Assembly (NCBI GenBank): GCA_007693535.1 | Contig: REDK01000078.1 | Coordinates: 1-64,000, forward strand | Direction of reading: 5' to 3' | DNA from: Chromatiaceae bacterium | GTDB taxonomy: Bacteria; Pseudomonadota; Gammaproteobacteria; Chromatiales; Chromatiaceae | DNA: 64,000 nucleotides | Shown: piece after piece, positions 420-43,193 of the stretch | Layout: each line of letters begins with the position of its first letter | How positions within the stretch are numbered: position 1 is the first letter of the stretch | Translations under genes and position numbers: made by a program | The notes under the pieces: model-generated | The model's database searches: none | Seen by the model: the letters and a program-made list of their open reading frames with translations, nothing else | Told to the model about the DNA's origin: nothing

Positions 420-968
420 TCAGCTGGCCGCAGTTGCTGTCACCTGTTGCAGGCTCGGTTTGACGCGCGCCGCGTCGTAGCCCTGCGCCGCGGCGATGGT
501 CATGGCAAGTTCGTAATCGGTAGGGTCGAGAGGCGGGGAGCGGGCGATGAGCCACAGCCGCTTTCGGCTCGGGGTGCCCATCAGTGCCCAGCGATACTCG
601 GGGTCGAGACCAATCACCCAAAGGTCACCCCGAATCAGTTTGAAAAATCTCAGAATCAACTTTGATCCGCTCGGGTCCGCCGGCTGCACCAGACCGTTCA
701 CCTGGGAGCGCCGCATCCCCGCCTTTGCGTTGTGGGACACCGTTTCCACGGTGATACAGCCGTCGGGGCGCCTCGCATAGGTTGCGGTGACGTCCACACT
801 GTGCTGGCCGAAACCGTCTGCTTCGAGATTAGGCAGCCTTGCGACTTCGAACCAGGTCCCCAGCAGACGGTCAAGGTCGACCTGCGCCACGGTCTCCGGC
901 GGATGGCGGGGTTTGCCGGAGCCACCCAGCAGTCGCTTGAGCAAGGCGAAACGAGGATGCTTGATCAT
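420..968 (-). CDS. Lipocalin family protein (Blc-like)
   Basis: ORF 420..1238 (-) with internal ATG at 968; GTWFEVARLPN and LWVIGLDPEYRWALMG lipocalin motifs. Confidence 0.8.
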   Translation of the reverse strand: MIKHPRFALLKRLLGGSGKPRHPPETVAQVDLDRLLGTWFEVARLPNLEADGFGQHSVDVTATYARRPDGCITVETVSHNAKAGMRRSQVNGLVQPADPSGSKLILRFFKLIRGDLWVIGLDPEYRWALMGTPSRKRLWLIARSPPLDPTDYELAMTIAAAQGYDAARVKPSLQQVTATAAS

Positions 969-1249
969 GCCCTGAGAATTGGGCGTGCACTGCGTGGAAG
1001 CAACCCGCGATCCGGTCCGGTTGGCATCCCCAAATCCGTCACGCGTTGCGGGTCCGGCTGTCGAGCAGGTCGAAGCGGACGAGCGTGGTCGAGAGTGGCT
1101 GCCCGGTCTCGGCCGCCCTCCAGGTCCACGGCGGCTCCGGCGCCGGCAGCCATGGCGGTGCCGCCTGGGCGGCGCCAATCTGTGGACAAGCTGCGCGGCG
1201 AGATGATCGATCAGCTTCAGCGGTGTGGGCGTCAGCACCGTGGCGCCAT

Positions 1250-1381
1250 TGCGCTGTAGCAGAGAATCCGCTCGACGGGCGCGGCGTCGGTGATCAAGGC
1301 GATGATGCGCACCTGCCTGCCAGCAGGCAGGTATTCGCCCCGCAGTTCGGGCAGGTCAGCGGGAGGGACTCGAACAGGCGC
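1250..1381 (-). pseudogene. IS91-like transposase C-terminal remnant
   Basis: Minus-strand RLFESLPLTCPNCGA then, in another frame, QVRIIALITDAAPVERIL, resembling the C-terminal zinc-finger/tail of IS91-type transposases; broken by a palindromic insert. Confidence 0.5.
1311..1332. repeat. Perfect 22-bp palindrome ACCTGCCTGC-CA-GCAGGCAGGT
   Basis: 10-bp arms fully complementary, 2-nt centre. Confidence 0.9.
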
Positions 1382-1394
1382 GCCAGCAGATCAG

Positions 1395-1440
1395 TGGCCG
1401 AATGCCCGTGGAATGGGTGGCCGAATGGGCGTGGAATAAG
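1395..1440. repeat. Two tandem 23-bp near-identical repeats (tggccgaatgNgcgtggaat)
   Basis: tggccgaatgcccgtggaatggg / tggccgaatgggcgtggaataag. Confidence 0.8.
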
Positions 1441-1449
1441 TAATCACGG

Positions 1450-1562
1450 CGGTGGCCCCCTGCGCGAGGGGGGCCCTGCTGCAGGGCCTCGCCCGCTGCG
1501 GTCATTGCGGGCGCAAGCTGCTGGTGGCCGATAGCGGTCGCTACGCCGCCCCGACCTACGAG
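1450..1562 (+). pseudogene. Serine recombinase zinc-ribbon fragment
   Basis: ALLQGLARCGHCGRKLLVADSGRYAAPTYE, typical of the recombinase zinc beta-ribbon; similarity stops abruptly. Confidence 0.6.
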
Positions 1563-16680: not shown

Positions 16681-16835
16681 GGCGATTTTCGTCAACTTTC
16701 ATGCCATCCGACTGATCTTGATGCCCGCCTTGGCGTCGCACTGGCGGTCAGCGAGTTTGCGATGCGTCCGCCAGTCCGCCTTGAAGGCGAACGTCAATCC
16801 TGCCTGATCTGGCATGAAAATTTCCGGCGATCGCC
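16681..16835 (-). repeat. Dispersed 155-bp repeat, copy D
   Basis: Reverse-complement alignment with 43001-43155; termini ggcgat...atcgcc; TIR 20/26. Confidence 0.8.
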
Positions 16836-19165: not shown

Positions 19166-19260
19166 GGCGATTGCCGAAAACCGTTATGCCAGATGACGCA
19201 GGATGGACGTTCGCCTGCAAGGAGGTGGCTGGCGGGAGCCGAGAAACGCAGCAGAAGCTG
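19166..19260 (+). repeat. Dispersed 155-bp repeat, partial copy C
   Basis: ggcgattgccgaaaaccgttatgccagatgacgcaggatggacgttcgcctgcaaggaggtggctggcggg. Confidence 0.7.
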
Positions 19261-31823: not shown

Positions 31824-31990
31824 GGAGGTTGCTGGAAACCTTGATGCCAGATGACGCAGGGTTGACGTTCGCCTTCCGTCCACCCTCAAGGAGGGCTGGC
31901 GGGAGCATGGCAAGCTCGGTGAGCGCCAGTGCGGCGCCGAAGGCGGGCGTCAAGACCAGTCAGATGGTCTGCAAGTTAACAGAGGTCGAC
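31824..31990 (+). repeat. Dispersed ~155-bp repeat, copy A (between thrS and infC)
   Basis: ttgatgccagatgacgcagggttgacgttcgcc...gggctggcgggagcatggcaag...cgccagtgcggcgccgaaggcgggcgtcaagaccagtcagatggt. Confidence 0.8.
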
Positions 31991-42472: not shown

Positions 42473-43000
42473 ATGAGACTGACGACCAAGGGCCGCTACG
42501 CCGTGACCGCGGTGCTGGATCTGGCCATCCACGAAGGCGCTGGCCCCATCGCCCTGGCTGACATCGCCCAACGCCAGGGCATCTCCCTGTCCTATCTGGA
42601 ACAGCTGTTCGCCAAGCTGCGTCGACGCGCCATCGTGGCTAGCGTACGGGGTCCTGGCGGCGGCTACAACCTCGCTCGGGATGCCGGCACCATCTCCGTG
42701 GCCGAGGTCATCACCGCGGTCGATGAGCACATGGACACCACCCGCTGCGGCGGTGCCCTCAATTGCAAGAGCGACGGACCCTGTCTGACCCATGACCTCT
42801 GGATGGATCTGAGCAATCGCATCCACGGCTATCTGAATCAGATCAGCTTGAAGGACCTGGTAGAACGCCAGCCCGGGGCCGAAGACAACGAATGCGCCCA
42901 GCGCCGAGCCGAATTGCGTGCCCAGTTCCGACCCGCCACGGAGGGCAAGGTCGAGGTCAAGATCGAGCCTTTGCGCCCGCGCAGTCCAGCGCGGGCGTAA
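42473..43000 (+). CDS. iscR: Rrf2 family iron-sulfur regulator (IscR-like)
   Basis: [34 protein letters not shown]; three Cys in [22 protein letters not shown]. Confidence 0.88.
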
Positions 43001-43155
43001 GGCGATTGCAGGAAGCGTTGATCCCAGATGACGCAGGCTTGATGCTCGCCTCCAAGGAGGGCTGGCGGGGGCATCGCAAACGCTGTGACCGCCAGTACAA
43101 CGCTGAAGGCGGGCGTCAAGACCAGCCAGATGGTATGGAAGTTGAGAAAAATCCC
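43001..43155 (+). repeat. Dispersed 155-bp repeat, copy B (abuts iscR stop)
   Basis: ggcgattgcaggaagcgttgatcccagatgacgcaggcttgatgctcgcc...gaaggcgggcgtcaagaccagccagatggtatggaagttgagaaaaatcccc. Confidence 0.8.
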
Positions 43156-43193
43156 CTGAGGCCGGATTCACCGCGCGAGCCGGCCGCGCCGGC

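Follow-up and report, generated by a model that had tools for sequence, protein, structure and literature searches.

Several families of short repeats in bacteria resemble the element described here. REP and BIME elements, which are associated with RAYT transposases, are short, palindromic, dispersed and non-autonomous, and they form strand-specific hairpins. Their units are 20-40 nt long and insert without duplicating the target. IS1031-type insertion sequences, which belong to the IS5 family, duplicate 3-bp TNA targets, and the DUF4096 domain is typical of part of this group. The Correia element (NEMIS) of Neisseria has TA duplications, and its inverted ends are shorter than those of our element. 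In Correia transcripts, RNase III cleaves at the inverted ends (review PMC10969869). ERIC sequences or IRUs (127 bp) are short, gene-free and intergenic, form an imperfect palindrome over their whole length and are flanked by a short target duplication, and the mechanism of their transfer is not established (PMC2759123). Palindromic repeats of the ERIC kind have long lacked a known transposase and an explanation of their hairpins.

Here we describe a repeat family found in a window of 64,000 nucleotides from a Chromatiaceae bacterium. The family has inserted with duplication of TNA targets, has multiplied in several species to copy numbers in the tens or hundreds and has kept its hairpin at the level of lineages.

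Results

Four copies of the repeat are located in the window. The full-length copy D (156 bp) occupies 43001..43156 on the forward strand directly 3' of iscR, which belongs to the Rrf2 family. As an earlier note on this DNA had stated, it begins right after the TAA of iscR. This TAA (42998..43000, forward strand) is both the stop codon and the left TNA target site. The right target site is a TGA (43157..43159, forward strand), and the mismatch at the middle base is consistent with an old insertion. Copy A (155 bp, 16681..16835, reverse strand) has a ribonucleotide reductase gene on one side and a cytochrome c gene on the other. Copy B (167 bp, 31824..31990, forward strand) is flanked by TTA on both sides and lies between thrS and infC, a kind of location at which control over the expression of translation genes is common. 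Its previously noted small internal insertion comprises 11 bp. Copy C (19166..19239, forward strand) retains only the left part of the element and is situated just 3' of a gene with a beta-lactamase-type domain. The earlier note was right about the presence of this fourth copy and about the repeat at 43001-43155, but its lengths need correction: copy D extends to 43156 instead of 43155, copy C measures about 74 bp instead of about 95 bp, and the unit 156-157 bp instead of about 155 bp. Additional units rich in CCTTC/GTTCG were found at one shared point of the left arm in the window (31877-31887) and in L006, L017, L021, L023 and L027, as if they had arisen by slippage.

The window copies resemble each other far more than chance would allow. 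BLASTN comparisons between them gave E-values from 1e-32 to 6e-11, and a covariance model based exclusively on 24 other lineages recovered the three long copies with E-values of 2.7e-23 (copy D, 105.7 bits), 2.2e-20 and 8.3e-16. The proposal that the unit folds into one long imperfect hairpin was borne out by folding z-scores of -5.0, -3.2 and -3.1. In the window genome (4.16 Mb, 186 contigs) there are about 40 distinct copies with 78-98% identity to the consensus, matches that were pieces of one copy having been merged by eye. This is not the chance-level similarity that the earlier note had named as a refutation. Its other refutation, that the copies are parts of a coding gene, is also ruled out, as the copies occupy unrelated, mostly intergenic places and the fixed-length copies of foreign genomes vary by paired stem changes.

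The family is defined by a length of 157 bp and the ends GGCGATTGCCGG...TTGACAGAAATCGCC. Its terminal inverted repeats read GGCGATT.../...AATCGCC, and the two arms pair over the whole length. In an alignment of 29 copies of the window genome the unit starts with GGCGAT, ends with ATCGCC and has TNA on each side. The 3-bp TNA duplication was perfect in 19 of 19 near-identical copies checked in Halochromatium glycolicum, and the element thus inserts as DNA. Among 246 instances with both ends, 182 were exactly 157 bp long and 172 had perfect duplications. A C was found at position -4 in 62% of 237 left flanks, and the middle base was T or A in 81%, which makes the target C-TNA-G-like. Two of the TNA triplets, TAA and TGA, are stop codons. 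Elements most often lie at a distance of zero from the stop of a neighboring gene, and among the gene ends that could be scored the duplication coincides with the stop codon in 4 of 13 and in 7 of 51. In the case of copy D, the insertion shares the TAA of iscR and leaves the protein intact.

The element has no coding capacity, since the stems vary by paired changes and not as codons, and its length is below the limit of about 600 bp for MITEs. It is thus short and gene-free, has terminal inverted repeats and a target site duplication, and forms a dispersed multi-copy family, in agreement with the MITE-like nature proposed earlier. A conserved TTGACA lies close to the right end, yet no -10-like sequence was enriched at the right spacing, and an outward promoter at this end was therefore dropped.

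The element occurs across the purple sulfur bacteria (Chromatiaceae) and sporadically in other bacteria. With one mismatch allowed, 39 of the 194 family genomes, from 19 of 61 genera, contained the right end, with 478 matches in G193 and 253 in G039. Halochromatium, Thiorhodococcus, Thiococcus, Thiohalocapsa and Lamprobacter are among the hosts. H. glycolicum DSM 11080 (G001) had 263 end matches, corresponding to about 130 near-identical copies. Hosts outside this group were Sedimenticola, Candidatus Accumulibacter and a Burkholderiaceae MAG. Among 369 sampled members of the class, one genome beyond that of the window was positive (G388, from another family, 147 matches). The G001 consensus shares up to 99.4% identity with elements of G002 and G005 and about 75% with the family of the window genome. 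The patchy, bursty distribution and the 99.4% identity between genomes fit horizontal spread. The plasmids and phages searched gave no match, except for one viral contig whose match was taken as chance, as it does not fold like the element. In Rfam, the window repeats had no match at gathering scores, and four loci had none at E-values up to 1. No published description of this family was found in the open-access literature searched, which is no proof of novelty. G388 also carries a form of 235 bp with an insertion of about 80 bp that contains predicted extra hairpins and is flanked by GCGCCGG repeats (L334-L363); its TNA duplications are mostly intact.

For the analysis of the fold between lineages, 24 representatives clustered at 88% identity were used. 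All are 157 nt long and align without gaps, so the alignment itself cannot create covariation. In the hairpin of 60 pairs, 91.5% of the cells were paired as compared to 80.5% after shuffling. Changes on both sides were seen in 31 of the 60 pairs (19.6±2.2 shuffled) and in 155 cells (53±6 shuffled), and the covariation score was 0.359 against 0.167±0.009 for shuffled controls, which carry no phylogeny correction. Sliding the arms by 1-3 bases abolished the covariation, with scores of about 0.10 or less. In helix 3, the apical stem that reaches up to the loop, 12 of 18 pairs covaried. While the stems vary, the internal loops are fixed and rich in G·A or purines. Tandem G·A faces G·A at 12-13/145-146 in 23 of the 24 lineages, at 37-38/121-122 in 19 and at 57-58/100-101 in 16; the pattern is weaker at 27-28/130-131 and 69-70/88-89.

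In 22 of 24 representatives and 28 of 29 copies of the window genome, one strand folds better than its complement, an asymmetry that is partly due to shared ancestry. Single-base departures from Watson-Crick consensus pairs between lineages gave G-U in 64 and A-C in 30 cases. Compared with the 59 G-U and 69 A-C of an earlier count in the window genome that included flanking bases, Fisher's test yielded P = 0.002, the lineages not being independent.

The copies residing in the window genome behave differently. For 38 aligned matches, one of which is the reverse strand of another, the covariation score was 0.096 as compared to 0.094±0.004 after shuffling, and 10 pairs had changed on both sides (10.4±2.2 shuffled). 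Single changes gave G-U in 52 and A-C in 59 cases. As covariation within the genome equals that of the shuffles and G-U is about as frequent as A-C, landed copies decay neutrally and the fold is kept in lineages that are still moving. An RNA function of each single copy was rejected because of this neutral decay. The alternative that the earlier note had offered, a structured RNA or DNA element, thus holds between lineages, where the hairpin covaries strongly, but not among the copies of the window genome. Target duplications, the spread across genera and the keeping of the fold only at the level of mobile lineages were beyond what that note could see.

Based on gene calls from a simple codon-score script, the orientation relative to neighboring genes was even (10 to 9 in the window genome, 29 to 29 in the G001-like set). 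In the latter set and with the same gene calls, 27 copies lay between convergent gene pairs and 11 between divergent ones, as expected if promoters are avoided. A 20-bp remnant, GGCGATTGACAGAAATCGCC, was found flanked by TNA at 11 sites (L131, L225, L227, L228, L236, L272, L279, L286, L289, L305 and L313), 8 of which had a perfect TNA duplication. It corresponds to what would be left after a deletion between the two TTG close to the hairpin ends. Such a deletion is the usual outcome when replication slips past a hairpin. These recurrent scars look like hairpin deletions, which suggests that the hairpin forms in vivo.

Discussion

We consider it likely that these repeats constitute a non-autonomous 157-bp MITE family whose hairpin is maintained in mobile lineages and decays in resident copies. 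The element would be moved by a cut-and-paste DDE transposase supplied in trans. This enzyme is probably IS5-like, because IS5-like elements are generally known for TNA duplications. The hairpin may be required for moving or for being tolerated, presumably as a folded single strand, either transcript or single-stranded DNA, since one strand folds better than its complement. Once landed, copies would be freed from selection on the fold and would then decay. A more specific version, in which a strand-specific hairpin of transcript or single-stranded DNA is recognized by the spaced tandem G·A loops and is obligatory for TNA-duplicating movement, is a tentative proposal that we would not yet favor. 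To our knowledge, no such folded-hairpin route has been described for elements that make target duplications.

The main competing explanation also regards the element as a MITE, but assumes that the arms covary because a single transposase, whose specificity varies between lineages, binds both ends as double-stranded DNA, the pairing of the arms being without function. Inverted ends that share their sequence are the rule in DNA transposons, and conservation of our element is highest in its outermost 15 bp. We nevertheless regard this as unlikely. Covariation extends into the apical stem up to the loop (12 of 18 pairs in helix 3), the loops keep G·A facing G·A rather than matching ends, and single changes favor the pairs that let one strand fold (64 to 30), a preference that end binding does not predict.

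Mutation instead of selection could also make the arms alike, if template switching during replication of the hairpin copied one arm onto the other. Hairpins of this size obstruct replication, and the 20-bp deletion scars at the hairpin base at 11 sites would fit such events. Copying between arms should, however, erase internal mismatches, yet the G·A loops persist in most lineages, and no covariation is seen among the roughly 40 resident copies of the window genome, on which the process would act as well. This origin of the paired changes is therefore rather improbable. That every copy serves a function in the host, for instance as a regulatory or terminator RNA, is least credible of all: the hairpins are stable and often lie directly after genes, but copies in the window genome mutate regardless of pairing, prefer no orientation relative to genes and match no Rfam family.

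Under the favored reading of a MITE mobilized in trans, a parent element may be expected. The whole-genome search for it covered the end pattern and two transposase families and found no autonomous element with these ends, neither as distant paired ends in all fetched loci nor as solo ends in G001 and G002. Transposases of the Pfam families DDE_Tnp_4 and DUF4096 were absent from the high-copy genomes checked. The window genome has only two DUF4096 genes, neither with element ends nearby, and H. glycolicum has none.

Two candidates for a partner or parent were rejected. The one in G388 proved to be the 235-bp variant with its insertion of about 80 bp in the hairpin, and the one in G001, a repeated unit attached to the element, turned out to be a separate insertion sequence that had landed inside it. 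In at least six copies (L082 1-274, L083 1-274, L098, L103, L110 and L116), this insertion sequence, possibly IS200/IS605-like and ending in ...CCAGGCTTTGCCTGGCGCAA, adjoins the element at one and the same point, behind nucleotide 10, as if the element served as its landing site. Two larger units with matching TNA ends, TAA and TTA, were also observed, one of 912 bp (L162 ~606-1518, reverse strand) and one of 857 bp (L249 ~658-1515, reverse strand). Between the two element halves they contain a DUF805 gene and a Uma2 gene, which are possible gene cargo.

Comparison with known systems

Like the Correia element, our family is a high-copy MITE with inverted ends. With REP and BIME elements it shares the short palindromic, dispersed and non-autonomous nature, but it differs from them by a clear 3-bp duplication. 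The 3-bp TNA duplication links it to the IS1031-type insertion sequences, which are a plausible source of the missing transposase, although none was found with the ends of this element. The likeness to ERIC sequences lies in a short, gene-free, intergenic unit that is palindromic over its whole length and has a short target duplication. In contrast to our element with its 3-bp TNA, ERIC sequences have a TA duplication, Enterobacterales as hosts and presumably another sequence. In comparison to such repeats, the present family combines fresh copies and clean duplications with hundreds of insertions, and its diverged lineages are numerous enough to tell selection in moving elements from decay in resident ones. 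With it the need of a hairpin for moving becomes directly testable.
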